A DNA stretch of 64,000 nt from contig JACQFZ010000048.1 in NCBI GenBank assembly GCA_016199745.1, forward strand, positions 186,001-250,000. The letters are read 5' to 3'. Source of the stretch: Gammaproteobacteria bacterium (GTDB taxonomy: Bacteria; Pseudomonadota; Gammaproteobacteria; Acidiferrobacterales; Sulfurifustaceae). Below the pieces are notes generated by a model. It did no database searches. It worked only from the letters and a program-made list of their open reading frames with translations, and had not been told where the DNA came from. Every line of letters begins with the position of its first letter. Within the stretch, counting starts at the first letter, position 1. Below are positions 1,084 to 35,489 of this stretch, in pieces. The position numbers and the translations under genes were made by a program.

Positions 1084-2256
1084 TCACGCCGCACCGCGAC
1101 GAACGCTGGCGTACTGCCCTGCGCCGGCAATGTCGGCGTAATAATCAACGTAAGCGCGTAGCAACCGGTCCTGCGAAAATAATTTCACTGCCCGTTCGTT
1201 GGCGCGCTGCCCCATGTTACGCCGCAACTCGGCATCATTGGCAAGCGTGAGCATATGCCGCGCCAACGCATCTACATCGTCGGCACCGTGCAACAAACCG
1301 GTAACACCGTCTTCGACGGCGTCGACGATTCCGTAAATCCGCGACGCCACCGACGGAATACCGACTGCTGCCGCTTCAACTAATACCAAGCCGAATCCTT
1401 CTCGTTGGCTCGGCAGGCAAATAACATCCGCTGCCGCCATATATTTTTCCGGTTGATCGGTATAACCGTACGCATGAACAAACGGCATATCGTCCTTATA
1501 CTGTTGCGCCAAGCCGGGCAACAACGTGTCCTCATCGGGTCCGACGACGAAGAGATGAACGCCCGGTCGCTTTTGCCGTAATTGCCGAAAAGCCTGAAGC
1601 AAGAACTGCACACCTTTGTCACGTGTAATCCGGCCGGTATAAAGAAATACCAGCTCGCCATCGTCGACACTAGCCGCACGCCGTATTTCCGCTCGCGCAT
1701 CTCGATTCGGTCGGAATCGCGTCGTGTCGACACCCGATATCGAACCATTGGCCAACACTATCGCCCGGCGCGCCGATAACACACGCTCTTTCTCTAGAAA
1801 TACACGCTCGGAATCGCTGATGACGAGGATATGGGTGGCGGCTGCTGCAGTAATCTTGTCCATCCATTTAAGAACGGAACGCCACAACCCTTTGCGCGTC
1901 GCCCACACCTCACCCTGAAAAGTATGCACTCGCACTGGAACGCGTGCGAGCCAGGCCGCGACCATGCCGAGCAGCCCCGCCTTTGGTGCCACCGTATGAA
2001 CCACGGCAAAGCGTTCCGCGCGAAATAGACGAAACAGGAGATACAGCGCAACCAGGTCACGGAATGGATCGACTTTACGTTCGATAGGAATGCTATGAAC
2101 GATCGGTACATTATCGATAGCTCGCAACGGATACGGTTCGTCGAGATTGACTACGAGGCGCATGTCGTATCTGGCACCCAACTCGCGCAAGATCTCGGTC
2201 AGAAATGATTGCACGATAAATGGGCTGGTCGTTACGAAAGCTAAGCGCCGACGCAT
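1084..2256 (-). CDS. Glycosyltransferase family 4 (GT-B, retaining type)
   Basis: A 390-residue cytoplasmic glycosyltransferase of the GT4 type. The C-terminal domain begins with FLYTGRITRDKG (about 204-215) and carries the E-x7-E motif EGFGLVLVE at 286-294. The region AVVHTVAPKAG near 84-94 resembles N-acetylhexosaminyl or 6-deoxyhexosamine transferases of the PglA/WbpT class, which add an early sugar to a lipid-linked intermediate; that assignment is tentative. The ATG at 2256 is the natural start, although its ribosome binding site is weak. It lies 33 bases after the GT2 gene and upstream of the epimerase, in a glycan assembly block. Donor and acceptor are unknown. Confidence 0.85.
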   Translation of the reverse strand: MRRRLAFVTTSPFIVQSFLTEILRELGARYDMRLVVNLDEPYPLRAIDNVPIVHSIPIERKVDPFRDLVALYLLFRLFRAERFAVVHTVAPKAGLLGMVAAWLARVPVRVHTFQGEVWATRKGLWRSVLKWMDKITAAAATHILVISDSERVFLEKERVLSARRAIVLANGSISGVDTTRFRPNRDARAEIRRAASVDDGELVFLYTGRITRDKGVQFLLQAFRQLRQKRPGVHLFVVGPDEDTLLPGLAQQYKDDMPFVHAYGYTDQPEKYMAAADVICLPSQREGFGLVLVEAAAVGIPSVASRIYGIVDAVEDGVTGLLHGADDVDALARHMLTLANDAELRRNMGQRANERAVKLFSQDRLLRAYVDYYADIAGAGQYASVRRGAA

Positions 2257-2289: not shown

Positions 2290-3285
2290 TCACTGCAACG
2301 TCGACGGCTTCTCGGGAAGAATCCGCCATTTGATGCCGAGATAGATACCTTTGAAAAATCCCAGGATCGGTCCGATACTGCGACACTGCACACATTTGAC
2401 GCCTGCTTCCAGGAACAACCCGACCATCAACCATAATAAATTGAACAATGCCAACGGCTGGCTTTTATTCTTTTTATAGAAGCAGATGAAGATGCGGACT
2501 TTATGCGCCTGCCGATCGCGCTCCTTCGCGCGATTCACCGGCGAGAATACGTGATGTAGCCGCGCCTGAGTGTTGATAAAAAATCTGTTTTTGCCGTAGC
2601 ACTTGGCGGCCCGCGTTGAAAAATCTACATCCTCCATGATGAAGAACCCGTTTTGCGTATCGAACGGTACCTCATCGAAAACTTCGCGTCGAAACGCCGT
2701 CAGTCCGCCACTCAAGTAGACGCTCTGTATCCACTTGCGGTCCCATGCCTGCGGAATTCCAAAAATGCCGACACGTGGGTCGCGAAAAATACCGCGATGA
2801 AACACGTGGAATAAGAACCGATAACGCCAGTTCGAATTTGGCATCTGTACTATCACGCCGCATGAACCCATCATCTCCGGCTTTTCATCGAACCCAAGCA
2901 ATATTTTCTCGATGAAGTCAGGCTCGAGAATCACATCGTCTTCTAGAAACAAAACGACATCGCATTGGCTGCGTTGGGATGCCACTTCTTTCGCCGGCAC
3001 TAAGCCACGAACGGAAGGATCGTGAATATAGTTAACGACAACGTCGAGCTCTTTCCATTGCGGCAAGCCCAACACGATGTCCTTCGAAGCGTTGCTACCA
3101 CTTTGATCGACGACGATAAGCTCGGTCGGCAACAATGTTTGCCGCAACAACGACTCGACCGCCTTGTGCAAATCCTGCGGCCGGTCTTTGGTCGGAATTA
3201 CGGCACTGACAGTCAATTGAGTCGGTCGGTTTGAGCGATGCGTACTCGGCCGGGTGCGCTCTACCGCGCTGCTTGGCGTTGCCAT
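2290..3285 (-). CDS. Glycosyltransferase family 2 (GT-A)
   Basis: A GT-A fold inverting glycosyltransferase of 331 residues. The start of the fold reads VSAVIPTKDRP (about 26-36), and the metal/nucleotide DxD-type motif is FLEDDVILEPDF (113-124). Residues 1-25 are a basic, Ser/Thr-rich leader of unclear role. I prefer the ATG at 3285: the frame extends to a TTG at 3303, but GGAG sits 12 bases before the ATG. It follows the metallo-beta-lactamase-fold gene by 28 bases and precedes the GT4 gene, so the two transferases are probably made together. One stretch (2401-2460) counts 27/60 G+C, lower than most of the locus, which hints at separate acquisition. Donor sugar unknown. Confidence 0.85.
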   Translation of the reverse strand: MATPSSAVERTRPSTHRSNRPTQLTVSAVIPTKDRPQDLHKAVESLLRQTLLPTELIVVDQSGSNASKDIVLGLPQWKELDVVVNYIHDPSVRGLVPAKEVASQRSQCDVVLFLEDDVILEPDFIEKILLGFDEKPEMMGSCGVIVQMPNSNWRYRFLFHVFHRGIFRDPRVGIFGIPQAWDRKWIQSVYLSGGLTAFRREVFDEVPFDTQNGFFIMEDVDFSTRAAKCYGKNRFFINTQARLHHVFSPVNRAKERDRQAHKVRIFICFYKKNKSQPLALFNLLWLMVGLFLEAGVKCVQCRSIGPILGFFKGIYLGIKWRILPEKPSTLQ

Positions 3286-3313
3286 CTCGAATATCGACTC
3301 CAAATTGCGATCG

Positions 3314-4573
3314 TTATACGTGGAAGAAGCTCAAAAAATCCTGCGCTTCGCGTCTGAACTCGTCTGGAATTCGTCGCGTACGATGCTGCGAACCGACCTC
3401 GGCGTTATTCCAATGAAACACACAGGTCAACAAACCGAACAGGTAGCGCGGATCGATCAAGATCTCCGAGCGCGGCTGCAGATTTGCAACGTCTTTAGTA
3501 ACGAACGACTGCTCGCTGCCCTTGCGAGCATTACAAACAAACCACTCTTTACCGTCGCCGGTCAAATCGATACAGAAGTAATAGTCCTGAGTACAGTTAG
3601 AAAAACGCGCGGCGCTTTGATATGCCTTTGGCAGCAAACGCTTGAACGGCAACGCCGTCACCGGCAAATCGGTGAACCAGCGCTCATAGTCCATCGGCTT
3701 GTCTGCCAAACTACGTGCGTAACTTTCGCAGGCAGATGCACTGTACGGCTCGGTCCTGACGCGACTCGGTTTTAGCGTTTGCGTATCGATCGTCGCCTCA
3801 CCGCCGTCTGCCAACACCACCGCCTTCGGATCGATCGCCAACATCTCGACCGCGTCCGCCACGCCGCGATAACGATTCAGCGTCTGCAGCTTTCCGCCGA
3901 GGATGTATTTACCGGCGAACGGAATATTAACGCGTGCGTTGAGCGCCTCGTTCATCTGCTTATAACGCTCGAAGAATTGCTGCTTTTTTTGACTCGCCTT
4001 TTCGCTCAGGGTCGCCGGATCGTCGTAATACGTCTGCGGATAGGGACCGGCGCCGGTATAACTCAGCAAGGCAATTGTCGGCGATCCGCCGATGAAAGAG
4101 AGTAGCTTTTGAACTTGATTGGCGTCGAATAGATTGTCATTCATGTTGACGACAGAATCACCAGCGTGGACCACAGCCAGCGCGCTGTCGACGTCAAATG
4201 ACGACGCTTCATAAGGCACTAAGCAGACGCGGGTCTGGCCGATATTCAACTCCGATACGACTTCGTGCGGAATGCCGTCGGCCTGCATTTTTTTCGAAAG
4301 AAAGTTCGCCTTGAAGTTACAGATAATGACTCTGCATTTTGGATGGCGTTGCAAATAATCGCGTAGAAATTTCGGATCGTAATGGTCTGGATGAATATGC
4401 GACACATAGACGTAGTCGTACGTCGGAATTTTATCGAGCGCCTGCTCGAACGGCGGATAGTGATACCAACTCCCATCATAGACGCCTTCGGTAAACCAAG
4501 GGTCGCATAGAATTGTCGCATCCGACGTCTCTAGACCAACACAAGCAGAGTAGAAATAACGGACTTTAATCAT
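3314..4573 (-). CDS. Metallo-beta-lactamase-fold protein resembling CMP-Neu5Ac hydroxylase core, without Rieske domain (copy 1)
   Basis: A 419-residue MBL-fold protein. It shows CDPWFTEG (23-30), GSWYHYPP (34-41), the metal motif SHIHPDH with H59, H61, D63 and H64, then NMNDN, GAGPYPQTY and ARVNIPFAGKY, and ends with HWNNAEVG from 387. From memory of the family, animal CMP-N-acetylneuraminate hydroxylase has matching blocks (DPWL, ISHLHSDH, PFAGY) but also an N-terminal Rieske iron-sulfur domain, absent here. UlaG-type lactonases are more distant relatives. The ATG at 4573 has AGGAGG six bases upstream. It follows a HAD phosphatase gene and is a paralogue of 19738-21057. The likely substrate is a CMP-ulosonic acid or a precursor, by inference only; hydroxylation or hydrolysis cannot be distinguished. 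Confidence 0.8.
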   Translation of the reverse strand: MIKVRYFYSACVGLETSDATILCDPWFTEGVYDGSWYHYPPFEQALDKIPTYDYVYVSHIHPDHYDPKFLRDYLQRHPKCRVIICNFKANFLSKKMQADGIPHEVVSELNIGQTRVCLVPYEASSFDVDSALAVVHAGDSVVNMNDNLFDANQVQKLLSFIGGSPTIALLSYTGAGPYPQTYYDDPATLSEKASQKKQQFFERYKQMNEALNARVNIPFAGKYILGGKLQTLNRYRGVADAVEMLAIDPKAVVLADGGEATIDTQTLKPSRVRTEPYSASACESYARSLADKPMDYERWFTDLPVTALPFKRLLPKAYQSAARFSNCTQDYYFCIDLTGDGKEWFVCNARKGSEQSFVTKDVANLQPRSEILIDPRYLFGLLTCVFHWNNAEVGSQHRTRRIPDEFRREAQDFLSFFHV

Positions 4574-4630: not shown

Positions 4631-5305
4631 TCAGTGCATGATCTCGATCGGCGGCCGTTGCGGAGCAATAATCATATGAATCAACTCAACAAGATCCGAC
4701 AATACCTGCACCTCTTTTGGAAAACCATGAGTGCCGCAAGCGATACCGACAAACATAACGCCAGCGTCGATCGCACCGCTATAGTCGGTCATCGCATCGC
4801 CGACCATCAGCGTACGCGATGCGGCGATCTCATAGCTTTGGATAAAACCTCTAATAATCTCGCCCTTCTTCCGCGGTGCACCGGCAACCCCGGCAAAAAA
4901 GCGTGTCATGTTGCGCCGGGCAATAATGCGTATCAGCTCTTCTTCCGGTGTGCCTGATGCGACGAATAACGGCACCCGCACGTGCAATGTCTCGAGCAGT
5001 TCTTGTGCGCCGCCAACCCAAGGCGCCGCTACCACCGCATCCTCGACCAAATCGGAAAAACGTTGCGCCAGCTCCGCTTCTTCGTGCGCCGGCAACGGTT
5101 TGTGCAGAAAGGTTTGATGAAAATGCCGGAACTTCTCGTAGCGCGAAACACCACCATGCGCCAGGTGCCAAGCCACCACTTGATCAACAATTTGCGAACC
5201 ATAAGGCGCATATAGCGCGGCAAATGCTTGCGTTTTAACGTCAACCGATTCCACCAAAACACCGTCGAAATCGAATACGACGGCGTCGCAATGCAACTCC
5301 TTCAT
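4631..5305 (-). CDS. HAD-superfamily phosphatase (copy 1, ulosonate-associated)
   Basis: A 224-residue haloacid dehalogenase-type phosphohydrolase. Motif I is FDFDGVLVES with the nucleophile Asp12 and Asp14. Motif II is VASGTP, and the metal-binding motif is LMVGDAMTDYSGA. A helical cap lies between motifs I and II. The start is the ATG at 5305, which overlaps the upstream stop as ATGA; a longer frame to 5335 would overlap the epimerase more. It is similar in length and layout to the HAD protein at 15485-16183. Because a CMP-ulosonate synthetase-like gene and an aldolase lie close by, a plausible role is removing phosphate from an ulosonic acid phosphate, as KdsC or Neu5Ac-9-phosphatase do. 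That is inference. Confidence 0.85.
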   Translation of the reverse strand: MKELHCDAVVFDFDGVLVESVDVKTQAFAALYAPYGSQIVDQVVAWHLAHGGVSRYEKFRHFHQTFLHKPLPAHEEAELAQRFSDLVEDAVVAAPWVGGAQELLETLHVRVPLFVASGTPEEELIRIIARRNMTRFFAGVAGAPRKKGEIIRGFIQSYEIAASRTLMVGDAMTDYSGAIDAGVMFVGIACGTHGFPKEVQVLSDLVELIHMIIAPQRPPIEIMH

Positions 5306-6231
5306 ACTTTGGTCGAACGATTGGTCACCAACCAATCGTCCTCGGGATGGGCATCGCTACTGTGCTCGTGCAACTCCGCCAAGCAATCGAGCAGTCCCTG
5401 TCCAAGGTCAACATAGTCGTTGGCTACCAGCTTATGACCGACCTTCGGATGGAACGCGTACGGTGTCATGACGTAGTGTGCCGCATCATGCTCGCCGCTG
5501 AATGTCAGCTTCACGCCTTTCGGGATCATCTCGGAAATCATCTGCATCAAATTCTTGACCGGCATCCGCTCCTGACCGGTTAGCACCAAGTGGCGATTGG
5601 CGTATTCGTCAGCGAGTATCTGCACGCTCAAACGGGCGGCATCACGTACGTGAATGTACTCGCGCATCGCCTCAGGGCTACCATGATAAGTGATAGTGTG
5701 CTGTTCGAGTGCCTGCTTCAGCAAACGATAAATGCCATTACGCCGATCGGCACGACGCCCGTAAAGCGATCCATAACGCAAAATCGAGAACGCCAAACCG
5801 TAGCGATCGTTGTAGGCTTCGACAAATCGTTCGGCCGATTGCTTACTGGCGCGATAGAACGAACCGGATTCGGAATAGACGTACACCGAGCTGGCAAATA
5901 CAAAACGTTTAGCGTTGGTCAAACGTGCCGCTTCGAGCGCGTGCAGATTGCCGATGATATTGGCGTTGGCGGTGTCGAGCGGGCGATCACGCGCTTCGTC
6001 AATGTCGGCAATACCGGCGAAGTTGTATACATAAGCGCAGTCTTGAGCAGCGCGGACGACGGCGTCACGATCCATAATATCGCCGACGTGCATCTCTTGG
6101 TCCTTGCGCAGATAAGGCGACGCGGTCCGATCGTAGATGCGCACGCGATAGCCGGCATCGGAAAGCGCGTCGGCCACGTGGCTACCGAGAAATCCGCTAC
6201 CGCCAAAAACTACTACCGTCTTGGCTGTCAT
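5302..6231 (-). CDS. NAD-dependent epimerase/dehydratase (extended SDR)
   Basis: A 309-residue extended SDR. The nucleotide-binding motif is FGGSGFLGSH (9-18), DIMDR is at 51-55, and the catalytic pair is in YRASK (Tyr126, Lys130) after FASS. EYIHVRDAA is typical of UDP-glucose 4-epimerase-like enzymes. The ATG at 6231 is preferred over the GTG at 6240 because AGGTGG lies five bases before it. The gene follows the 2-hydroxyacid dehydrogenase gene by 12 bases and overlaps the HAD gene by ATGA, so the three are translationally linked. It probably modifies the sugar precursor made by this module; the substrate is unknown. Confidence 0.85.
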   Translation of the reverse strand: MTAKTVVVFGGSGFLGSHVADALSDAGYRVRIYDRTASPYLRKDQEMHVGDIMDRDAVVRAAQDCAYVYNFAGIADIDEARDRPLDTANANIIGNLHALEAARLTNAKRFVFASSVYVYSESGSFYRASKQSAERFVEAYNDRYGLAFSILRYGSLYGRRADRRNGIYRLLKQALEQHTITYHGSPEAMREYIHVRDAARLSVQILADEYANRHLVLTGQERMPVKNLMQMISEMIPKGVKLTFSGEHDAAHYVMTPYAFHPKVGHKLVANDYVDLGQGLLDCLAELHEHSSDAHPEDDWLVTNRSTKV

Positions 6232-6243
6232 AGTCACCACCTG

Positions 6244-7182
6244 CTAGTTTGGTTGCGTCGTCAGCCCGCAAGCGACGAGACCACGCAGCAGATTATCCGC
6301 TGCTTCACATTCCATAATATTCCGACACTCCTCGGCATACGAACCCATGTGCGCTGTCAACACTACCTGCGGCAACGCCGCTAGCGGGCCGGCGTACGGT
6401 TCGCGCTCGAAGGTGTCGATTGCCGCGCCGGCAAGCCGACCGGACTGCAGCGCCGCCAGCAATGCCGCCTCATCCACTAAACCGCCGCGCGAAAGGTTAA
6501 CAACGACGGCGTCCGATCGCATCTTGGCGATCCGATCGGCGTCGATCAGGTACTTACCTTCCTCGCAAGGTACATGTAGGGTAATCACGTCGGCACTGGC
6601 GATAAGCGTATCGAGGTCCACCCACTCCACTGTTTGATCGGAAATCTGAGGAATCATGTCGGTAACCAGCAACCGACAGCCGAACGGCTTAAGCAGGCTG
6701 GCAACGCGACGGCCGATCCGGCCGTAACCGACGATACCGACGGTGCGCGCTGCCAACAATCGGCCCATAAGCGGCTTCCAAATACCGGCGCGAAGTTGCT
6801 GATCGGCCGCCGGAATCTTGCGCAACAGTGCGAGTATTGTGCCGAGGGTCAATTCCGCCACCGCAGCGCTCGGTGCATCCGGCGTGTTCAATACGGTGAT
6901 GCCGAGCTCCTTTGCCGCCGTCAGGTCGACGTTATCCAGACCAATGCCACAACGCGAAATCACGCGCAGGTTCTTAGCACCCTGCAACACCCGCCGTGTC
7001 AGCGGCTCGACGCCGGCCAATAGACCGACGACGTCGTCACGCAACAACTCGGCGATTTCATCTTCGCTCAGCCGTCGACCATGGGGATTCGCAACGACTT
7101 GAATACCGGAAGCGCGCAAGTCGGTCAGTGCCTGCGTATCCCGATTGGAAAAAGAGGAAGTTGAAATTAAAACCTTTGGCAC
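6244..7182 (-). CDS. D-isomer-specific 2-hydroxyacid dehydrogenase (phosphoglycerate dehydrogenase-like)
   Basis: A 312-residue NAD-dependent dehydrogenase. The Rossmann motif is GYGRIG (152-157). The catalytic residues are Arg232 in SRGG, Glu261 in FEREP and His278 in AHMGS. It lacks the C-terminal ACT domain of the housekeeping SerA at 55041-56228 and is not closely similar to it, so a role in serine synthesis is unlikely. The frame is open to a TTG at 7254, but I chose the GTG at 7182: GGGAG lies eight bases upstream and conservation starts at MPKVLIS. It is the first gene of the third minus-strand block, with a divergent regulatory region upstream. It may oxidise a sugar-derived 2-hydroxy acid or reduce a 2-keto acid. 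Confidence 0.85.
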   Translation of the reverse strand: MPKVLISTSSFSNRDTQALTDLRASGIQVVANPHGRRLSEDEIAELLRDDVVGLLAGVEPLTRRVLQGAKNLRVISRCGIGLDNVDLTAAKELGITVLNTPDAPSAAVAELTLGTILALLRKIPAADQQLRAGIWKPLMGRLLAARTVGIVGYGRIGRRVASLLKPFGCRLLVTDMIPQISDQTVEWVDLDTLIASADVITLHVPCEEGKYLIDADRIAKMRSDAVVVNLSRGGLVDEAALLAALQSGRLAGAAIDTFEREPYAGPLAALPQVVLTAHMGSYAEECRNIMECEAADNLLRGLVACGLTTQPN

Positions 7183-7296
7183 GCTACCGTCTCCCAAATA
7201 TTCTGCGCGGCCTTCCACCCTTATCGACTCGCTGCAAAGATGACGTTCACTCAAAACGCGCTCGATCGGAACGCGCCGCGGCGAGTATATATCGAT

Positions 7297-7304
7297 CTAC
7301 CGCC
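7297..7304 (-). promoter_or_regulatory. Possible ops-like element (GGCGGTAG core)
   Basis: On the minus strand this reads GGCGGTAG followed by ATC. The first eight bases match the RfaH recruitment site exactly, but the T usually found at position 11 is C here. It is intergenic and lies 115 bases upstream of the GTG of the 2-hydroxyacid dehydrogenase gene, at the head of the block that runs to position 1. The setting therefore fits a second RfaH entry point, but eight matching bases alone are weak. Confidence 0.35.
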
Positions 7305-7309
7305 TCAGC

Positions 7310-7330
7310 CCACTGCAAGACTTGCAGTGG
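7310..7330. promoter_or_regulatory. 21-bp perfect palindrome, candidate operator in a divergent region
   Basis: Arms CCACTGCAAG and CTTGCAGTGG flank a single central A. The site lies between the divergent 2-hydroxyacid dehydrogenase gene (minus, start 7182) and aldolase gene (plus, start 7377). An odd-centred, perfectly symmetrical 10-bp half-site is what a dimeric repressor or activator would bind. With a one-base centre it is a poor RNA hairpin, so a protein site is more likely. No regulator gene is adjacent, and I do not recognise the motif. Confidence 0.4.
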
Positions 7331-7376
7331 TTCGGCTTGCTAAGATGCGCGCATTGCAACCAGCGCCCGGCAATCA

Positions 7377-8174
7377 ATGGACAACGACTCCCTCAAGCTA
7401 AAGTTGCGGCAAAACCGTTTGACGATCGGTTCGTGGATTACGCTCGCACATCCGGCTATCGCCGAAATCATGGCCCGCTCTGGTTTCGACTGGCTGGCGG
7501 TCGATTTGGAACACAGCGTCATCACCATCCGCGAGGCCGAAGAACTCATCCGCGTCATTGCCTTGCATCGCGTAGCGCCGCTAGTGCGCCTGACCAGTAA
7601 CGACGTCGACCAAATCAAGCGCGTCATGGACGCCGGCGCTCACGGCGTAATCGTACCGATGGTCAACTCGCGCGCCGATGCCGAGCGCGCCGTCGCTGCC
7701 GTGTACTATCCGCCGCGCGGACACCGCGGCGTCGGCCTTGCCCGCGCCCAAGGCTACGGCACTGCCTTCGCCGACTATCGCACCTGGCTCGAGCAAGAGG
7801 CGGTCGTCATCGTCCAAATCGAACACATTGCCGCCGTACAAGACCTCGAAGCGATCCTCAGCACGCCCGGCGTCGACGGTTTCATCATGGGCCCGTACGA
7901 CCTATCAGCGTCGATGAACATCCCCGGTCAGTTCGACAACCCGCGCCTGCTCGACGCCATCGAGCAAGTGCGCAGCAAAGGCTTGGCAATGGGCAAACCG
8001 GGCGGCCTGCACGTGGTCGAGCCGTGCCCCGACCAGCTACGCGAACACATCGCCCGCGGCTTCCGCTTTTTGGCCTACAGTCTCGACACGCGCATGCTCG
8101 ACGTCGCCTGCCGTAACGGTCTCGCCGAATGTCGCGCGGCCGCGCCCAAGTCATCCGGAGAAACACATCCATGA
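7377..8174 (+). CDS. HpcH/HpaI-family class II pyruvate aldolase
   Basis: A 265-residue TIM-barrel aldolase of the HpcH/HpaI family, which adds pyruvate to aldehydes to give 4-hydroxy-2-keto acids. Expected active-site residues are visible: His46 in DLEHS, Arg71 in LVRLTSND, metal ligand Glu149 in VQIEH and Asp175 in GPYDLSASM. Length is normal for the family. It is divergent from the minus-strand locus, and its stop overlaps the start of the KdsB-like gene as ATGA. That coupling suggests the product is a 3-deoxy-2-ulosonic acid that is then activated with CMP. Degradative members of the family act on aromatic-pathway intermediates, but none of those genes are nearby. Confidence 0.85.
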   Translation: MDNDSLKLKLRQNRLTIGSWITLAHPAIAEIMARSGFDWLAVDLEHSVITIREAEELIRVIALHRVAPLVRLTSNDVDQIKRVMDAGAHGVIVPMVNSRADAERAVAAVYYPPRGHRGVGLARAQGYGTAFADYRTWLEQEAVVIVQIEHIAAVQDLEAILSTPGVDGFIMGPYDLSASMNIPGQFDNPRLLDAIEQVRSKGLAMGKPGGLHVVEPCPDQLREHIARGFRFLAYSLDTRMLDVACRNGLAECRAAAPKSSGETHP

Positions 8175-8953
8175 GCACGATCGGTATTATCCCCGCCCGC
8201 ATGGCCTCCAGCCGCTTTCCCGGCAAGCCACTGGCGTTGATCCACGGCGTACCGATGATTGGCCACGTCTATTTTCGCTGCAAGATGAGCCGCGCGCTCG
8301 ACGAGGTCTACATCGCTACGTGCGACGAAGAAATCCGTCAATACGCGCGCTCGATCGGCGCACCGTGCGTGATGACCGCCAATACCCACGAACGCGCCAC
8401 CGACCGCACTGCCGAAGCGATGCTCAAAATCGAAGCCGATACCGGCAAGCGCACCGACATCGTCGTCATGATCCAAGGCGACGAGCCAATGACGCGGCCG
8501 GAAATGATCGATGAAGCGATCGCCCCGTTCCGCACCGATCGCAACATCAATGTCGTCAACCTAATGGCACACATCGACAATGTCGAGGATTTTGAGGATC
8601 CGAACGAAGTCAAAGTGGTGATCGATCTCAAAGGCGACGCCCTGTATTTTTCGCGCGAAGCGATTCCGTCGCGTAAAAAAGGCGTGACTAAGGTGCCAAT
8701 GCTGAAACAGGTTTGCATCATCCCGTTTCGGCGCGACTACTTGCTGCGCTTCAACAGCCTATCGCCGACACCGCTTGAAGTGATCGAATCAGTCGACATG
8801 ATGCGCATCCTCGAACACGGCGAAAAAGTACGAATGATCATGACAAACGCACAGACCGTCAGCGTCGACACGCCGGAAGATCACGCTTATGTCAACGAGT
8901 TGATGCGGACCGATTCGCTGATGCCGAGCTATTCCAACAAGCGCACCGGCTGA
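8171..8953 (+). CDS. KdsB-like CMP-ulosonate cytidylyltransferase
   Basis: A 260-residue relative of 3-deoxy-manno-octulosonate cytidylyltransferase. The CTP-binding start is IGIIPARMASSRFPGKPL, followed by TDRTAEAM and IQGDEP (metal/substrate loop). The ending VDTPEDHAYV is typical. It is somewhat divergent and longer than housekeeping KdsB (about 250 residues), and its insertion in a surface locus behind an aldolase suggests a different ulosonic acid. The start is the ATG at 8171, overlapping the aldolase stop; the frame extends upstream to 8129 but without conserved sequence, and GGAG lies 12 bases before this ATG. If this is the only kdsB in the genome, it could instead serve lipid A-core synthesis. 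Confidence 0.8.
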   Translation: MSTIGIIPARMASSRFPGKPLALIHGVPMIGHVYFRCKMSRALDEVYIATCDEEIRQYARSIGAPCVMTANTHERATDRTAEAMLKIEADTGKRTDIVVMIQGDEPMTRPEMIDEAIAPFRTDRNINVVNLMAHIDNVEDFEDPNEVKVVIDLKGDALYFSREAIPSRKKGVTKVPMLKQVCIIPFRRDYLLRFNSLSPTPLEVIESVDMMRILEHGEKVRMIMTNAQTVSVDTPEDHAYVNELMRTDSLMPSYSNKRTG

Positions 8954-8975
8954 CATCAGCCGCGTCGCAACCGGT

Positions 8976-11003: not shown

Positions 11004-11010
11004 GGGTTAA

Positions 11011-14771: not shown

Positions 14772-15488
14772 CTAAGTTCGGGCCGATTGTTCGGCCAGCA
14801 ACCGTTCCAACGTTTGAAAATCTTCTAGTGTGTCGATATTTACGATCGGATCAGTAACCACTACCGCGCCGGAACGTTCGCCCATGATTTTCTTCTGCTC
14901 GAGCAGACAGGAACGGGTCATCGCGTACACCAATCCGTTACGGTGGAAAACCGGGCTCAATTGCTGCCGGGCAACGATGGTGGAGCCCCTGGCATCGAAA
15001 TAATCCATTCGGCCGTCCTGGTCGACAATCAGCTGCTTCAGCGGATGAAACTTGAGGTCAGTCGGCGACACCGTCCAGACGGCATCCAATCGCTCGCGCA
15101 CCAACCGCTCTACAACTTCATGCACATGCGCGGGCCGGCGTAACGGCGAGGTCGGCTGCAACATCACAACCACGTCGTACGTAATCCGATCCAGCTTTTC
15201 CATTTCCTGCAACGCATGCACCAACACATCCCAATCGGCGATGCGATCACCGGAAATGTCGACCGGTCGTGTAAACGGCGCGCTCAGGCCTTCACCGGCG
15301 GCAACACTGGCGATCTCGGTGCTATCGGTCGAGACCACCGCTCGGTCGATGAATGGACACGCCTTAATCGTTCGCGCCGTGAAGGCAATGAGCGGAACAC
15401 CGTTGACCGGTCGGATATTCTTTTTTAGAACACCTTTGCTGCCGCCGCGCGCGGGCACGACCGCCAATATTCGTTGCTGTTCGATCAC
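14772..15488 (-). CDS. CMP-nonulosonic acid cytidylyltransferase (NeuA/PseF/LegF/CMP-KDN type)
   Basis: A 238-residue cytidylyltransferase. The CTP-binding motif is VVPARGGSKGVLKKN (10-24), LLQPTSPLR is visible as MLQPTSPLR, and NIDTLEDF near the end matches the family. It couples CTP to a nonulosonic acid to give the CMP-activated donor. The start is the GTG at 15488, overlapping the HAD stop as GTGA. The order NeuB-cupin, HAD phosphatase, this gene recalls the Bacteroides thetaiotaomicron KDN set (KDN-9-phosphate synthase, phosphatase, CMP-KDN synthetase). It is also the best candidate for the otherwise unassigned PseF. Substrate specificity cannot be read here. Confidence 0.85.
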   Translation of the reverse strand: MIEQQRILAVVPARGGSKGVLKKNIRPVNGVPLIAFTARTIKACPFIDRAVVSTDSTEIASVAAGEGLSAPFTRPVDISGDRIADWDVLVHALQEMEKLDRITYDVVVMLQPTSPLRRPAHVHEVVERLVRERLDAVWTVSPTDLKFHPLKQLIVDQDGRMDYFDARGSTIVARQQLSPVFHRNGLVYAMTRSCLLEQKKIMGERSGAVVVTDPIVNIDTLEDFQTLERLLAEQSART

Positions 15489-16183
15489 TTGCGGATTCTC
15501 GTTGTCGCGGTGGCACTGTCGGGATCCCTGTTGAGGGAGAGAATAATGGGCGGAAGTTGACGCAGGTCGTCGATCAAAATCGATGGACGCTGGGTATAAC
15601 CGGAGAAATCGTTTTCAATACCGACGAAGTGGCAACCAACCGCCACCGCCGCAGTTCGGTCGACCTCGTTATCACCGACCATGACCGTTGCCTCGGGCGC
15701 TGCCATTACTTCAGCCATCGCTAACCGCAAGTTTTCAACCTTCCCGGCGGGACGACCGAGAATTTGCCTGAAAAAACGATCAATACCGCGTCGGCGCAGG
15801 ACCTGCCGCAACGGCGCGGTTGGCGTCGCCGAGCTCACGAACAACGCCACCTGTAACGCCGTCAATGCTTCCAAGCAGGCAGTGGCGCCAACAACTTCCG
15901 CACAGGAGGCGATGCTCTCCTCGCAGTAAGACGTATAACGATCCACCAGGTCGTGCGCCAAGGTTTGTTCAACTCGAACCGCCGGCAACCGACCGGTCGT
16001 CTGCAACCGTCGAACCAGTTCGGCAAAAATCGCCTGCCGATCCCCAACCTTGTCCACCAATACCGTATCGACTACTTCGGCAACGTCACCGAGCGCCTTG
16101 GTCACTTCATAAAAGCCTTGGCGTTTTATCGAATTCGACTGCACCAGCGTTCCGTCGAAATCGAAAACGACGCATTGGATCAT
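15485..16183 (-). CDS. HAD-superfamily phosphatase (copy 2, ulosonate-associated)
   Basis: A 232-residue HAD phosphatase with nucleophile motif VFDFDGTLVQS (Asp8, Asp10), motif II FVSSATP, Lys in GRPAGKVEN and motif IV VMVGDNEVDRTAA. The ATG at 16183 overlaps the stop of the NeuB-cupin gene (ATGA), and its own stop overlaps the next gene. Tight coupling between a synthase and a CMP-transferase argues that it dephosphorylates the ulosonic acid phosphate formed by the synthase, as in the mammalian Neu5Ac-9-P and bacterial KDN-9-P routes; bacterial NeuB/PseI pathways normally need no phosphatase. It is a paralogue of 4631-5305. Confidence 0.85.
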   Translation of the reverse strand: MIQCVVFDFDGTLVQSNSIKRQGFYEVTKALGDVAEVVDTVLVDKVGDRQAIFAELVRRLQTTGRLPAVRVEQTLAHDLVDRYTSYCEESIASCAEVVGATACLEALTALQVALFVSSATPTAPLRQVLRRRGIDRFFRQILGRPAGKVENLRLAMAEVMAAPEATVMVGDNEVDRTAAVAVGCHFVGIENDFSGYTQRPSILIDDLRQLPPIILSLNRDPDSATATTRIRK

Positions 16184-17712
16184 GCCGACGCCGGCAACTG
16201 GAAGCGGCCCCAATGATCGACTACGGTCTTGCGTTCGTGCCGCTGCATCGCGTTAATCTTCTTGTCTTGGTAGACCGAATCGTTGTTGAAGTGGGTCGTT
16301 GATATCTCTTCGGCGACGCAACCGGTTTCGGTCCAGAACCGATGCCACACGCCCGGCAGCACCAGAATGGTTTCACCCGGATGCAGGATCCGGTGATGGC
16401 CATCGATCTCGACGTGCATGACGCCGTAGAGTACTTGGAATGTTTCTTCTTTCCGTTTGTGAAAGTGCAACGGATGCGATTGGCCCGGCAATTGGACGAT
16501 GATCTTCTTACAATACTCGCGGTTGACGCAGTCGATCAGCACGCAGCCAGTCTTACGGAACTCTTCCATGCCGTAATGATGCGAATACTCGACTTTGAAT
16601 TCGCTGCTGAGATGGATCCGCGCTTCGTTGAGTAGCGCCTTGACGTCGTGCACCGCCGATTGAATCGCCAGACGCGGCGGATCCGGCGGATAAATCGCCG
16701 CCGACCAATTCAGCGGCTGATGCACCGTCAGATCGCTGGACGCGACCATGCCCTCTTTCCAGCGACCGCTCGGGATCTGCCCCTCTTGGATCGGCATCGC
16801 AAAGTAAACGTCGTGCCGCTCGATCGCCGAACCCGCCTTGATATCGTTCCGCAGATAAACGCCACGCATGAGCGTATCCAGAGCGTCCTTCTCTTCCTTC
16901 GACGGCGCGCCGCGATGGAACTCGCCGCACAGCGTCAGCGCGCGCCGATACGATGCCATCCACTGATCGATCTGCGCCGGCGTCGCCGAATAGGAATTGA
17001 GCGTGATCTTGTCGGTAGCGACACCGACGTGCCGTTCGAACATGCGCGCGCCCTTGGCGACCGCGATCTGCACCGCCGAAAGCTCCTTCGGATCTTCGTG
17101 GGTCGACCAGCCGATAGTGTGTTTCGGATAGCGGTTGCGCAGCATCTCGATCTGGCTGAGATTAAATTTGTCGTCGGGAATCGGATAGATCGACACACAA
17201 TGCATGATCGCGTAATCGATACCGCGGTGATCGAAGAAGCTCACGAGCTTGTCGATGTCGCTGATGAGCAGTCCGCCGGTAGAGAAGATCACCGGCCTAC
17301 CGGCATCGGCGATACGCTCGAGCAACGGCCAGTCTTTAGCGGAGCAGCTGCCGACCTTAATGATGTCCAGACTCATCTGTTCGCAGATATCGACCGACTC
17401 TTCGTCGAACGGCGTCGACATCGGCATCATATCGTGCTTGCGGATTTCGTCGACCAACGCCTGAAATTCTTCGTGCTTCAGGCGCGTCGACATAAATCGC
17501 GGGATATGTTTGTTGCTGCTCTTATCCTGATGCGTCGGATGCACGAAAGAATCGAGCTGACGGAACTGCAGCTTAACCGCCGCGCGCACACCGTGCTTCT
17601 TCACCACCTGCGCCAGCTCTTGGATGATCTTTTTGCCGTGGCTCACGTCGCCCTGGTGGTTGTTAGCCATTTCCAGAACGAAAAGGTCATTGAAGTCGAA
17701 GTTGTTGAACAT
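16180..17712 (-). CDS. NeuB-family nonulosonic acid synthase fused to a C-terminal cupin
   Basis: A 510-residue fusion. Residues 1-270 are the NeuB TIM barrel (EMANNHQGD at 14-22, AAVKLQF, IKVGSCSAKDW, IGWSTHE, FERHVG). Residues about 290-350 resemble the antifreeze-like SAF domain (YLRNDIKAGSAIERHDVYFAMP). Residues about 370-490 are a cupin with metal ligands likely His416, His418, Glu423 and His457 (HFHKRKEETF and VWHRFW), resembling D-lyxose isomerase-like cupins. The barrel condenses PEP with a sugar; the cupin may bind, isomerise or present that sugar. Canonical NeuB and PseI are about 350 residues. It heads a coupled set with the HAD and CMP-transferase genes. The ATG at 17712 follows the oxidoreductase gene by 24 bases. 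Confidence 0.85.
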   Translation of the reverse strand: MFNNFDFNDLFVLEMANNHQGDVSHGKKIIQELAQVVKKHGVRAAVKLQFRQLDSFVHPTHQDKSSNKHIPRFMSTRLKHEEFQALVDEIRKHDMMPMSTPFDEESVDICEQMSLDIIKVGSCSAKDWPLLERIADAGRPVIFSTGGLLISDIDKLVSFFDHRGIDYAIMHCVSIYPIPDDKFNLSQIEMLRNRYPKHTIGWSTHEDPKELSAVQIAVAKGARMFERHVGVATDKITLNSYSATPAQIDQWMASYRRALTLCGEFHRGAPSKEEKDALDTLMRGVYLRNDIKAGSAIERHDVYFAMPIQEGQIPSGRWKEGMVASSDLTVHQPLNWSAAIYPPDPPRLAIQSAVHDVKALLNEARIHLSSEFKVEYSHHYGMEEFRKTGCVLIDCVNREYCKKIIVQLPGQSHPLHFHKRKEETFQVLYGVMHVEIDGHHRILHPGETILVLPGVWHRFWTETGCVAEEISTTHFNNDSVYQDKKINAMQRHERKTVVDHWGRFQLPASA

Positions 17713-17736: not shown

Positions 17737-18828
17737 TCAAGAGATGGCCGCCGGGCCATAGCCTTTCGAATAGTCGATCCGCACCACGCGGCCTTCGCGC
17801 GCCGATCGATGCGCTGCCACCAGCGCCAACATCGTTTCTAACCCGCGCTCGATGCTGACCGGTGAATCGCTACGCTTGCCGGAAAGCACATCGGCGATGT
17901 GTTTCATCTCGACGATGAAATCGTCCGGGCGAGTTTTGGAGAAACCGGCCTCGACCGCGTCCGCTTTGCCGTGCTTGTGGACGATCATATCAAGGCCCGG
18001 TTTGTGGTTGATGTGGAATTCGCCGAAGCCGTCGCGCCCTTGGATACGGCCCCACTTCCTAGCCGGCGCGGTGACGACGTCCTGCACGCAACGGCCCATC
18101 AATCCCGACTCGGTGCGCAGATCGAACGCGCAAACCTTATCGTAGTCGGCGCCACCTTCGCTGACGAAATCCATCATCGCGCTGACTTCGACGACGCAAC
18201 CGGCGCCAACCACATGGGCGAAATGCTGCCACAGGTTCAGCGCGTGCGAATGCTCGCCGCTGGCGCCGCCGCCCTTGGTCCAAAAGCCGAGATAAGTATC
18301 CGCCGGCCCGCTCAACCACGGATGCGCGGCGAAGATGCCGCCCCAATGCTCGCGGAACTCGACGTCCAACGTCTCGATCGGGCCGATCGCCTGCTGGCGC
18401 AAGATCTCTTCCAGCTTGACCACCGAAGGCGCGACCACGTGGTTGTAGCCGACGAACACGCGCGTACCGCCGGCGCGGGCGGCGCTGTATAGCTCTTGCG
18501 TGCGGGTTAGGTCCGGCGGGCACAGCGGCTTCTCGACCAGCAGCGCCTTCGGTTTTTCCTGCAATGCCTGCATCGCCAAATCTAAATGCGAGTTCGGCGG
18601 CGTGCCGATAAAGATCAGATCGTAGCCACCCTTCGGCGCTTCGTTAGACGGAAACAGTTTTATCGATTCGTCCCAGCTGCCGTAACGTTGCGGATAGATC
18701 TGATTACGCGTGCGATCGAGCGCGGCGCGGTCGAGATCGCAGATGTGGACTTCCCAACCCAAGACCCGACAAGCGTTCGCCAAATGATTGCCGATCGAGC
18801 CGGCTCCGTGAATTTTTACTTTGTACAT
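17737..18828 (-). CDS. Gfo/Idh/MocA-family oxidoreductase
   Basis: A 363-residue NAD(P)-dependent sugar dehydrogenase. The N-terminal Rossmann motif is IHGAGSIGNH (6-15), followed by FIGTPPNSH, VEKPL (catalytic Lys of the EKP motif) and GYNHVVAPSV. The C-terminal half is the alpha/beta substrate domain. Such enzymes oxidise or reduce a hydroxyl of a nucleotide sugar or sugar acid, as WbpB does. The ATG at 18828 is preceded by GGGGCTGAG. It lies directly upstream of the NeuB-cupin gene and probably prepares or modifies its sugar substrate. Confidence 0.85.
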   Translation of the reverse strand: MYKVKIHGAGSIGNHLANACRVLGWEVHICDLDRAALDRTRNQIYPQRYGSWDESIKLFPSNEAPKGGYDLIFIGTPPNSHLDLAMQALQEKPKALLVEKPLCPPDLTRTQELYSAARAGGTRVFVGYNHVVAPSVVKLEEILRQQAIGPIETLDVEFREHWGGIFAAHPWLSGPADTYLGFWTKGGGASGEHSHALNLWQHFAHVVGAGCVVEVSAMMDFVSEGGADYDKVCAFDLRTESGLMGRCVQDVVTAPARKWGRIQGRDGFGEFHINHKPGLDMIVHKHGKADAVEAGFSKTRPDDFIVEMKHIADVLSGKRSDSPVSIERGLETMLALVAAHRSAREGRVVRIDYSKGYGPAAIS

Positions 18829-18911: not shown

Positions 18912-19643
18912 TTATTTCTTCCGCACCAAAACGTAGTAGCGATCGTCGCGACTGTAATGCTTGTCGCTGCCGATGAGGCTGCGACCGACCAGGGAAATGT
19001 TGGCGGACTGGACGATACTTTCAGTTTCGAACGCGGCGAACTCACGGGCGATACGTTGCTGGCTGAAGAACGCCTGCGGAATATTTTTTTCGAACCCGTC
19101 CGGCAAGATCCAGGTATCTTCTTCGATCGGCTGACCTTGGCCATAGGCGCTGTCTTCGTTGCTGATGACGCTGAAGAAGAACAATCCACCCGACTTCAGC
19201 ACTCGCTGCACTTCGTCAATACCGCGGCGGCGCACGTCGTTGACCATATGATCGAGCACGCCGTGACAAATGACGAAATCGAATGCGCCGTCGCCGTAGG
19301 GAATGACGTCGATTGATCCTTGCTTGACGTCACCGCGCAATTGCCGCGACGCCAACCATTGTTGCGCGAATTCGACTGCGACTTTCGACAGATCGACACC
19401 GCAAGCGTTGATGCCGAACTCCGCCATCGTGATCAGATGCCGGCCCTTGCCGCAACCAAGATCGAGGCCGGTCGGTTGTTGCGGCGTGACGTAGCGCACA
19501 TCGCCGGCGCCGAAGCCGGTGCGGCGAGCGATGTAGCGCGCGAGGAAGCGAACGATCTGCTCGTCGGGATACCACGGTTGCGCCTCGAGGTGCGACCAAG
19601 TGTCGTCCCACTGCCGCTCGAACTTTCGATTCGGTTCGGTCAT
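18912..19643 (-). CDS. Class I SAM-dependent methyltransferase
   Basis: A 243-residue methyltransferase with motif I GLDLGCGKGRHLITMAE, acidic strand-2 region CGVDLSKVAV and a later ICHGVLDHM block. The N-terminal WDDTWSHLEAQPWYPDEQIVRFLARY is common in small-molecule methyltransferases of surface-glycan loci. The ATG at 19643 has AAGGA six bases upstream; the frame continues to 19841 but overlaps the preceding gene and is not conserved. The start overlaps the stop of a 23-codon ORF as ATGA. The acceptor is unknown; a sugar N- or O-methylation is likely. Confidence 0.8.
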   Translation of the reverse strand: MTEPNRKFERQWDDTWSHLEAQPWYPDEQIVRFLARYIARRTGFGAGDVRYVTPQQPTGLDLGCGKGRHLITMAEFGINACGVDLSKVAVEFAQQWLASRQLRGDVKQGSIDVIPYGDGAFDFVICHGVLDHMVNDVRRRGIDEVQRVLKSGGLFFFSVISNEDSAYGQGQPIEEDTWILPDGFEKNIPQAFFSQQRIAREFAAFETESIVQSANISLVGRSLIGSDKHYSRDDRYYVLVRKK

Positions 19644-19711
19644 GACGATCCTTGATGCGCTTCCATTTCTTCTTTGTATCGCTGGTCCTGAGTAGTGGCG
19701 TAGGAATGCAT
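19640..19711 (-). CDS. Possible 23-codon ORF coupled to the methyltransferase gene
   Basis: An ATG at 19711 with AAAGGA five bases upstream opens a 23-codon frame ending in TGA at 19640-19642, which overlaps the methyltransferase ATG as ATGA. The peptide is hydrophilic and charged (starts MHSYATTQDQRYKEEMEAH). Both the ribosome binding site and the stop/start coupling match the style of real genes in this locus. It could be a small protein, a translational coupling leader, or a remnant. No homologue is recognised. Confidence 0.35.
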   Translation of the reverse strand: MHSYATTQDQRYKEEMEAHQGSS

Positions 19712-19737
19712 GGAAGTCCTTTGGGGTAGTGTCGGTA

Positions 19738-21057
19738 TTAGGCCTGAACCGGAACGTGTAAGAACGACAACAGCACGAACACTTCGGGTACGTATTCATT
19801 GGGCCGACGGTTGAAATCGATATGCAGCCCGCCTTCGGCATTATTCCAATGCGATTTACGCGTCAGAATACTGTGTAACAGCTGGCGTGACAAAAAACAT
19901 TCGAGGAACGGCTCGGTCTTCTGGCGCGCGAAGCCGACCAACTTCGTATAGCCCTCGGTGGCGAAGTTGAAGGCGTAACCGAGTTTCTCGTCGATCGATA
20001 AATAAAGATTGTAATCGCGCTTCCAATCGAGCCGGCTCTGCACCCGCCAGACGTTCTGCCGCGCCTTCTCCATGAGCGCGTCGATCTCGGCGACATCGGT
20101 ACACGACGCTTCCCAGTCGTACGGATACGGCACGTCCTTCAACGTCGCGGCGAATTCCATCAAATCCGCCGGCAACAGATGCCGTACCGGCAGTCCGCTG
20201 ATGTTACCGCTGTCGACGTCGAGCAGCGTACCGCAATCGAGCTGTACCGGCCGAGTAGCGCCGCCGCCGTTCTTCATTGCCGCGTTGACCGCAGTGACGG
20301 CATCGCTGGCGGCGGCCAAGCCGATGTAAGGATTCTTTTGATACATGCGACCGACCACGGCGTACTCCGCCGCCGTCGGTGCCACCAACCGCGGCTTGAC
20401 GATCTCGGTGATGCGTACGAAGTGATCGACATACTGCCGCTGCAGCCGTTTGGCTTCGCCGACCTTCTCCTCGGTGCTGAGATTGAGAAAACTCGCCGGA
20501 TACGGTCCCGACGCCGAGTGCGGCATCAGCGCCAGATCGATTTTCGGATAGCGCGCGGCGATCGACTTGGCCGACGGTTCGTCCAGGTAGTTGTCATTGC
20601 AGTTGAGGATCGTATGCCCGTCCCACTCGATCATGATCGCGCTGTCGATCATGTTGCCAAAATCAGCCTTGGCGTACAGATTATTAACGAACTGGCCGAA
20701 CAATGTGATGGTCGCGCCGCAGCTAAGCGTCGTCTGCTGATCGGGCGCGAGCGAAACGACGTTGTCGAAGCCGAACGCGCGCAACTTGCGTTCCAGCAAC
20801 CGGCCCATGTAGTTCGGGACGATGAACGTGGCGTCGCGACGCGCGCCGACGAGCGCTTTGAAGTCGCAATGATCGGGATGGATGTGCGAAATATAGATGT
20901 AATCGCAATCGGCAATGCCGAACTTGGTCGGCCGCAATGGCGGAAAATGAAACCAACTGCCTTCGAACGCGCCTTGGGTGAGCCACAGGTCCATGCCGAG
21001 GACGGCGCCGTTGTGCTCCAGATAACAGCCTGTGTTGCTGATAAATTCAAGCTGCAC
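19738..21057 (-). CDS. Metallo-beta-lactamase-fold protein resembling CMP-Neu5Ac hydroxylase core, without Rieske domain (copy 2)
   Basis: A 439-residue paralogue of 3314-4573. Shared landmarks are DLWLTQGAFEGSWFHFPP (23-40), SHIHPDH with His58, His60, Asp62 and His63, NCNDNYLD, SGPYPASF and HWNNAEGG from 403. The order and spacing match the CMP-N-acetylneuraminate hydroxylase catalytic region as I know it, again with no Rieske domain. The start is a GTG at 21057 with AGGAG seven bases upstream. It is the first gene of the middle minus-strand block (21.06-8.98 kb), downstream of a divergent promoter region and upstream of a methyltransferase. A role in tailoring an ulosonic acid is inferred from context. 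Confidence 0.8.
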   Translation of the reverse strand: MQLEFISNTGCYLEHNGAVLGMDLWLTQGAFEGSWFHFPPLRPTKFGIADCDYIYISHIHPDHCDFKALVGARRDATFIVPNYMGRLLERKLRAFGFDNVVSLAPDQQTTLSCGATITLFGQFVNNLYAKADFGNMIDSAIMIEWDGHTILNCNDNYLDEPSAKSIAARYPKIDLALMPHSASGPYPASFLNLSTEEKVGEAKRLQRQYVDHFVRITEIVKPRLVAPTAAEYAVVGRMYQKNPYIGLAAASDAVTAVNAAMKNGGGATRPVQLDCGTLLDVDSGNISGLPVRHLLPADLMEFAATLKDVPYPYDWEASCTDVAEIDALMEKARQNVWRVQSRLDWKRDYNLYLSIDEKLGYAFNFATEGYTKLVGFARQKTEPFLECFLSRQLLHSILTRKSHWNNAEGGLHIDFNRRPNEYVPEVFVLLSFLHVPVQA

Positions 21058-29642: not shown

Positions 29643-30227
29643 TTATCGTGATTGCGCCCGGCGCGCAACCAACATGCGCACTACCGCTGGCTGGCCGTCC
29701 CGCTGATAGCGGTCGGCCACATCTTTCTCAAGAACATAACCGGCTTTCATAAATGCCTTCCACGAAGAAACGTTGTCGACATAAGTGCCTGCCAAAATCG
29801 ACTGTATGCCAAGCCTATCGAACGCCCATTGCGTCACGGAACCAATCGCCGCCGCACCTATTGCTTGCCCCCAGACACGTTTGTCAAAAACACAAATGCC
29901 GATATCAGCCGTTCGATCCGTCAGATTGACGTGATGCAACCGTACGGTACCGCAATGACGCGCGCTGTTCTTATGAAAGATGCCGAACAACACCGCGTCC
30001 GGCGCCAGCTCGTCGATGCGCACGAATGCGCGGACGGTGTCATCGGTCTGCGTCTTTTGGCGCACCGCGACCATGTATCGATTGACTTCGGGATCGTTGA
30101 GCCCGTCGATGTAGCCGGCATGTACGTCATCGACCGTCAGCGACCAAAGATACCCCTGCGGGATATTCAGCGTCACGCCGCGTTTGAATACCGGCGTCAG
30201 TAACCTGCCGCTACCCATAGAACTCAT
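29643..30227 (-). CDS. GNAT-family N-acetyltransferase
   Basis: A 194-residue GNAT protein of the RimJ/RimL type: DDVHAGYIDGLNDPEVNRYM at the N-terminus, CGTVRLHHVN, ADIGICVFDKRVWGQAIGAAA (acetyl-CoA loop) and TYVDNVSSWKAFMKAGYVLE. It is not a PseH match; a separate pseH lies at 21154. The ATG at 30227 overlaps the pseI stop (ATGA). A sugar-modifying acetyl- or acyltransferase for a second amino group is likely, perhaps giving a differently acylated pseudaminic acid. Acyl donor and acceptor are not known. Confidence 0.8.
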   Translation of the reverse strand: MSSMGSGRLLTPVFKRGVTLNIPQGYLWSLTVDDVHAGYIDGLNDPEVNRYMVAVRQKTQTDDTVRAFVRIDELAPDAVLFGIFHKNSARHCGTVRLHHVNLTDRTADIGICVFDKRVWGQAIGAAAIGSVTQWAFDRLGIQSILAGTYVDNVSSWKAFMKAGYVLEKDVADRYQRDGQPAVVRMLVARRAQSR

Positions 30228-32361: not shown

Positions 32362-32364
32362 GCG

Positions 32365-33699: not shown

Positions 33700-33706
33700 G
33701 ACGGGG

Positions 33707-34450: not shown

Positions 34451-34462
34451 CGTTAGTCTCTC

Positions 34463-35476: not shown

Positions 35477-35489
35477 CAGCTCTCCGTCA

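Follow-up and report, generated by a model that had tools for sequence, protein, structure and literature searches.

A Rieske-free branch of CMAH/NamH-like metallo-beta-lactamase proteins often encoded beside sialic-acid-like sugar genes

Introduction

CMAH hydroxylates the N-acetyl group of CMP-Neu5Ac in animals, using electrons supplied by a Rieske domain located at its N-terminus. NamH, the Rv3818-type enzyme of mycobacteria, hydroxylates the N-acetyl group of UDP-MurNAc and carries its Rieske domain at the C-terminus. Metallo-beta-lactamase (MBL) oxygenases that have no Rieske domain are also known, namely CmlA and FrsH, which act on amino-acid side chains in natural-product pathways, and the solved structure of FrsH (8a90) is annotated as a non-heme diiron monooxygenase.

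Here we describe a Rieske-less family related to all of these enzymes. We analyzed a 64,000-nucleotide stretch of DNA, referred to below as the window, from a member of the Gammaproteobacteria (GenBank assembly GCA_016199745.1, contig JACQFZ010000048.1, positions 186,001 to 250,000). A preliminary description of this DNA, made from the sequence alone, had pointed out a CMAH-like MBL protein without a Rieske domain and had proposed that it tailors CMP-ulosonates. The annotated records of family members are labeled merely 'MBL fold metallo-hydrolase', and a search of open-licence papers found no description of Rieske-less CMAH relatives.

Results and discussion

The gene, which we call copy A (P0001), lies at 3314..4573 on the minus strand and encodes a protein of 419 amino acids with an ATG start and no internal stops; we assign it as a Rieske-less CMAH/NamH-like protein on the basis of its intact open reading frame, hhalign comparisons and an AlphaFold model. 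The sequence blocks reported in the preliminary description are all found, and in the order given there: DPW at residues 24-26, SHIHPDH at 58-64, NDN at 145-147, PFAGK at 218-222 and HWNNAE at 387-392. Likewise, the reported absence of a Rieske domain holds, as copy A has no CxH..CxxH motif, and none was found in any window open reading frame of at least 70 amino acids on either strand, including copy A and the second copy described below. Copy A starts directly, at residue 1, with its MBL domain (residues ~1-270; 3764..4573, minus strand), for which a weak match to Lactamase_B_3 (5.4e-8) is the sole Pfam domain match and over which structural matches span residues 1-289. An SCP2-like C-terminal domain (residues ~304-419; 3317..3664, minus strand) contains the HWNNAE block and the conserved residues W388 and R401. 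The preliminary description had missed a divergent Rieske-less paralogue, copy B (P0002; 439 amino acids; 19738..21057, minus strand), which is 26% identical to copy A over its full length with a single-comparison E-value of 4e-40. Copies A and B are the only matches detected in the source genome. A close relative of copy B, at locus L066, has a similar set of genes nearby.

For comparison with the Rieske-containing architectures, we used three bacterial proteins from whole genomes (P0008-P0010), in which an N-terminal CxH..CxxH motif precedes the MBL region (Pfam Rieske 4.8e-7 on P0010), and two actinobacterial proteins from plasmid records (P0004 and P0005), in which the MBL region is accompanied by a C-terminal Rieske motif. 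Judging from architecture and general knowledge, we take the former to be CMAH and the latter to be NamH in activity. When an 80-member Rieske-less profile was aligned to the three CMAH-type proteins using hhalign, the match had a probability of 99.9 and an E-value of 1.3e-33 over 384 columns, corresponding to residues 134-550 of the 580 residues of CMAH. The same profile aligned to the NamH-type proteins with an E-value of 2.1e-34 over 407 columns, corresponding to NamH residues 2-432. Both alignments span the entire catalytic part and leave out the Rieske domain alone, and they put the resemblance far above chance. The three architectures have 17 invariant residues in common: D24, W26, W36, D53, Y56, S58, H59, H61, D63, H64, D129, D146, P179, P218, A220, W388 and R401.

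The catalytic regions of copy A and CMAH are thus homologous from end to end and have HxHxDH, D129, D146, P218/A220, W388 and R401 in common. However, copy A lacks the N-terminal Rieske domain, is 15-16% identical to CMAH, and belongs to a group with the signature HWNNAE(I/V)G where CMAH has WE(D/E)(L/I)SIGF, and NxND where CMAH has VDS. The CMAH-like blocks noted previously do occur in the CMAH order, but HWNNAE is characteristic of the Rieske-less group and the NDN block reads VDS in CMAH. With NamH, copy A shares the NxND motif and the order of an MBL domain followed by an SCP2-like domain; it differs in the lack of a C-terminal Rieske domain and in its gene context. The Pfam model SCP2_Rv3818 (PF25451) gave no match to copy A at E<=1, while the NamH-type protein P0004 matches both this model and the Rieske model. 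Lacking the Rieske domain that defines both enzymes, copy A does not qualify as a CMAH or a NamH in the strict sense. Nevertheless, the preliminary observation is confirmed and extends to a real, conserved Rieske-free branch of CMAH/NamH enzymes.

To define this branch, 84,980 species genomes were scanned, yielding 111 relatives, 80 of which were fetched. A Rieske motif is present in none of the 80, a figure that holds partly by construction because the scan patterns were peptides typical of the Rieske-less group. The family thus has at least 80 Rieske-less members, distributed among bacteria and archaea (Pseudomonadota, Bacteroidota, Bacillota, Cyanobacteriota, Nitrospinota, Planctomycetota, Chloroflexota, Chlamydiota, Actinomycetota, Myxococcota, haloarchaea and Nitrososphaerota). 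It is rare in the sampled Gammaproteobacteria and Bacteroidota; the Bacteroidota sample gave two matches in 296 genomes, one of them in the centre genome. Searches of phage sequences and IMG/VR returned no relatives. Some haloarchaeal copies reside on plasmids (L004, L007 and L008), and since those at L007 and L008 are close to GlmU/GlmM-type rather than nonulosonate genes, the substrate at these two loci may differ.

In a phylogenetic tree, the Rieske-less proteins fall on one side of a branch (support 97/94) and CMAH and NamH on the other, with long deep branches. This bears on the idea that copy A is a decayed or non-catalytic CMAH left behind by loss of the Rieske domain. While the missing domain is what such decay would produce, the core residues are all kept, many full-length relatives have the same architecture, and the supported branch sets the Rieske-less proteins apart from CMAH and NamH. 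A single-gene truncation cannot account for a family whose architecture and residues are conserved across phyla, and we regard decay as very improbable.

The AlphaFold model of copy A (pLDDT 97, pTM 0.94) predicts an MBL domain and an SCP2-like domain. When the C-terminal 148 residues were folded alone (pLDDT 96), SCP2 proteins and domains were the top structural matches, with Z-scores of 7 up to 8.5, in line with the match of NamH to an SCP2-like Pfam model. A structure search with residues 1-289 returned NAPE-PLD (Z 20.8), SaxA (19.6), CmlA (18.6) and FrsH (18.6). No solved structure of CMAH or NamH came up in this fold search or in a sequence search. The preliminary description had suggested a structural comparison with CMAH and UlaG, with a best match to an unrelated MBL family of non-sugar substrate counting against its proposal. 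The best folds are indeed MBL hydrolases, with UlaG-type proteins among the closest, but this outcome is not decisive, as CmlA and FrsH score 18.6 and many MBL families crowd together at 10-20% identity. Foldseek and VIA did not separate oxygenases from hydrolases. Profile searches of solved structures gave a different order: FrsH was the best match to the Rieske-less family (5.9e-11), followed by SaxA (8e-10) and CmlA (~7e-7), and FrsH was also on top for the CMAH-type and NamH-type profiles.

The predicted metal site resembles that of CmlA and FrsH in part. The HxHxDH metal motif (HIHPDH, residues 59-64; 4382..4399, minus strand) is invariant in the Rieske-less family, CMAH and NamH and aligns with HNHQDH of CmlA and FrsH. 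D146 (4136..4138, minus strand), the motif-4 Asp, is also invariant and aligns, via its CMAH equivalent, with the Asp of AADS in CmlA. D129 (4187..4189, minus strand), a putative ligand, is the sole potential ligand that is invariant in the alignment of all three architectures where other MBLs carry the motif-3 His. CmlA and FrsH are Rieske-less MBL oxygenases, as proposed here for copy A, and are the top or near-top solved relatives of all three architectures. In contrast to copy A, they have an extra N-terminal segment of ~250 residues, so that the MBL match starts near residue 250, they do not match the C-terminal domain of copy A, and no residue of copy A corresponds in linear terms to their Glu of GEHGD (presumably E377 in CmlA, going by chain numbering and general knowledge). 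Linear equivalence of D129 to this Glu was ruled out, as the distance to the following strand is about nine residues longer for the CmlA Glu; by its position nearby, D129 may stand in for it as a ligand. Since copy A has neither a motif-5 His nor a residue in the linear position of the CmlA Glu, its metal site is probably not identical to that of CmlA, which counts against the diiron monooxygenase reading.

The reading of copy A as an oxygenase draws on its homology to CMAH and NamH minus the Rieske domain, and on FrsH being the best solved sequence relative. It must be weighed against a hydrolase reading, in which a deacylase, esterase or phosphodiesterase acts on nonulosonates or their CMP esters. 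In that case, CMAH and NamH would be oxygenases that arose from a hydrolytic ancestor with the MBL-SCP2 scaffold, whose chemistry the Rieske-less proteins would have retained. The Z-scores speak for hydrolysis, since the nearest folds are those of NAPE-PLD, UPF0173 proteins, SaxA and hydrolases of the UlaG type (19-21 for the UlaG, NAPE-PLD and SaxA group), which score at least as high as CmlA and FrsH; so do the SaxA profile match and the occurrence of an MBL plus SCP2-like combination in the alkylsulfatases SdsA1 and Pisa1. In contrast to these top-scoring hydrolases, copy A has neither the motif-3 nor the motif-5 His at the expected positions in its sequence, and their match does not extend over its C-terminal domain. 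The lack of the motif-5 His, which is usual in di-zinc hydrolases, speaks against hydrolysis. In addition, the residues held in common with CMAH and NamH, including D129, W388 and R401, argue for a shared active site, and FrsH is the top sequence match. With these points and those on oxygen given below, we consider the hydrolase reading less likely than the oxygenase reading, although it is a serious rival and the strongest of the alternatives.

We then considered the genes around both copies. Directly upstream of copy A, across a 57 bp gap, is a HAD-family phosphatase gene (4631..5335; Pfam 1.2e-15), and next downstream, after 10 bp, is a family 2 glycosyltransferase gene (2290..3303; Pfam 1.8e-20) followed by a GT4-type glycosyltransferase gene (1084..2256; Pfam 4.4e-37). 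A NAD-dependent sugar epimerase/dehydratase of the SDR type (5302..6240; Pfam 3.1e-43) and a D-2-hydroxyacid dehydrogenase (6244..7254; Pfam 1.5e-52) are encoded beyond the phosphatase, all five on the minus strand. The opposite, plus strand carries genes for a divergent HpaI-type pyruvate aldolase, a candidate ulosonate-forming enzyme (7377..8174; NCBIfam HpaI 1.8e-56, below the equivalog cut-off), and a KdsB-type CMP-ulosonate synthetase (8129..8953, start probably 8171; NCBIfam subfamily PRK13368 2.2e-97, above the cut-off). The dehydrogenase, aldolase and synthetase genes (6244-8953) possibly constitute an aldolase-based route to an unusual CMP-ulosonate. Copy B is adjoined by a SAM methyltransferase gene (18912..19841; Pfam Methyltransf_11 1.7e-20), and further downstream, again on the minus strand, are genes for a Gfo/Idh/MocA oxidoreductase (17737..18828; Pfam 6.3e-10), a NeuB-type synthase fused to a C-terminal cupin domain (16180..17712; Pfam NeuB 7.4e-42, Cupin_2 2.4e-11), a HAD-family phosphatase (15485..16213; Pfam 2.3e-14) and a NeuA-type CMP-sugar synthetase (14772..15488; Pfam CTP_transf_3 1.4e-17). 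The cupin of the fusion is weakly similar to D-lyxose/mannose isomerase, and the succession of the fusion and the phosphatase suggests a phosphorylated nonulosonate route.

A pseudaminic-acid-type cluster is located at 29643..38535 on the minus strand and comprises GNAT, PseI-like, PseG-like, aminotransferase, CMP-transferase, NeuB-like, aldo/keto reductase, PseC-like and PseB-like genes. The GNAT, PseG-like and aldo/keto reductase assignments come from Pfam and the NeuB-like one from NeuB_NnaB (34463-35476); the rest come from reading of the open reading frames and matches in other genomes. Altogether, the region 14772-38535 holds an unusually rich ulosonate set, with three NeuB-family genes, equal to the three matches in the genome listing, and several CMP-transferases. 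The same polysaccharide region encodes a PhyH-type dioxygenase of the 2-oxoglutarate type (24803-25666), a potential second sugar hydroxylase that also has a relative at L066.

The ulosonate-tailoring role proposed in the preliminary description is supported by the synthetase-like and aldolase genes near copy A and the NeuB, HAD and NeuA genes downstream of copy B, and also by NeuB, PseB, PseC, PseG and CMP-sugar synthetase neighbors in distant lineages. A NeuB-family gene lies within ~9 kb of 19 of 83 Rieske-less loci, a CMP-sugar synthetase gene within ~9 kb of 21, and one or the other within that distance of 26. By our own arithmetic, which assumes about one NeuB per 3-4 Mb genome, chance would place NeuB at ~0.5 loci, although a formal p-value would be unsafe because the loci share ancestry and glycan genes cluster generally. 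The commonest neighbor clusters are PseC-, PseB- and PseI-like, with PseG-like genes also frequent. NeuB is directly upstream on the same strand, at most 112 bp away, in Nitrospinota (L010), Bacteroidota (L031), Bacillota (L033), SAR11 (L051) and Thaumarchaeota (L060). NeuB and TylF-type methyltransferase genes are the commonest of the 52 adjacent genes (five each), and others encode further methyltransferases, GNATs, formyltransferases and PseB-type dehydratases; the GNATs and formyltransferases would suit the acyl exchange of a hydrolase too. The TylF-type gene adjoins the Rieske-less gene at L018, L026, L036, L044 and L066, which fall in three parts of the tree; at L018 and L026, the two genes are located away from any recognised nonulosonate genes. 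In a Pseudoalteromonas locus (L016, 8156-10278), a flagellin gene immediately precedes the Rieske-less gene, and PseB and PseC are close by.

A related precedent is found at locus L109 (G240:C1:487000-505000), where a CMAH gene with an N-terminal Rieske region is clustered at 7828-17076 with NeuB-, NeuC- and NeuA-type genes and a methyltransferase gene. This cluster is a candidate bacterial Neu5Gc pathway, in contrast to the statement that prokaryotes do not make Neu5Gc naturally (PMC7845648), and it provides a like-for-like precedent for a nonulosonate role of the Rieske-less proteins.

The gene neighborhoods could also be explained if the proteins were oxygenases or other metalloenzymes that act in surface-glycan metabolism on a substrate other than a nonulosonate, with neighbors that reflect shared glycan islands. 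Neither NeuB nor a CMP-transferase lies within 9 kb of 57 of the 83 loci, and nonulosonate genes are missing within that distance of many members, among them most of those from haloarchaea. Close relatives of copy A at L011, L014 and L018 are found among unrelated genes, for example those for malate synthase, a citrate transporter or a solute-binding protein. NeuB was detected in 40 of 50 host genomes, compared with 86 of 200 Pseudomonadota and 103 of 148 Bacteroidota (43-70%), and four haloarchaeal hosts are among the 10 with no NeuB match; because this enrichment is modest, genome-level co-occurrence is not one of our main arguments. However, co-directional adjacency to NeuB in five unrelated lineages is hard to explain by island sharing, and at L012, NeuB is ~18 kb away in the same genome and apparently on the same contig. 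A substrate other than a nonulosonate therefore appears doubtful to us, and less probable than hydrolysis.

The suggestion that a separate partner delivers electrons stands in part. It is plausible since the relatives CmlA and FrsH, annotated as diiron monooxygenases, likewise have no Rieske domain. However, the surroundings of the family members yielded no linked ferredoxin, Rieske protein or reductase, and this result counts against an oxygenase and in favor of a hydrolase. Ferredoxin-like regular-expression matches in flanking open reading frames were judged to be chance or reverse-frame artefacts, and open reading frames with Rieske motifs at L027, L039 and L077 were rejected as partners, as they do not adjoin the MBL gene. 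With respect to oxygen, the haem-copper oxidase COX1 is present in 48 of 50 host genomes, counted in host genomes alone, and this near-universal occurrence argues against hydrolysis. No Clostridia, Campylobacterota, spirochaetes or methanogens appear among the 80 record titles, even though many Clostridium strains and species carry genes for pseudaminic acid, which are widespread in that genus (PMC13317340). Both observations on the hosts fit an O2-dependent enzyme.

Taken together, we favor the reading, which we hold at about an even chance, that copies A and B are cytosolic, metal-dependent enzymes, probably diiron monooxygenases, that hydroxylate a nonulosonate or a related 3-deoxy-ulosonate, free or as its CMP ester, with an unlinked electron carrier. 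For both copies, we infer the identity of the metal, the dependence on O2, the hydroxylation, the substrate and the external donor. In such a mechanism, the MBL domain would hold the metal centre through H59, H61, D63, H64, D146 and probably D129, and the SCP2-like C-terminal domain, common to NamH, would help to shape the substrate pocket. Electrons would come from a general cellular carrier encoded elsewhere, as opposed to the covalent Rieske domains of CMAH (N-terminal) and NamH (C-terminal). In several lineages, the new hydroxyl group would then be O-methylated by the adjacent methyltransferase, which would account for the pairing of methyltransferase and Rieske-less genes. On Shewanella flagellin, a putative nonulosonic acid is reported to carry an O-methylated substituent (PMC3765264).

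Conclusions

The Rieske-less genes, often found beside sialic-acid-like sugar genes in distant bacteria and archaea, point to an undescribed branch of sugar-tailoring enzymes. More tentatively, and at somewhat less than an even chance, we propose that, in aerobic bacteria and archaea, widespread Rieske-independent diiron oxygenases hydroxylate nonulosonic acids, which are subsequently O-methylated, and that CMAH and NamH share with them a core whose electron supply is exchangeable, being N-terminally fused, C-terminally fused or free. If so, bacterial and archaeal nonulosonates would bear oxidative modifications for which there is a genetic marker, and the family would offer a Rieske-free model for O2 activation by CMAH and NamH. 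It would also help to explain why the glycans of flagellin, capsules and S-layers are chemically so diverse among marine and soil microbes.
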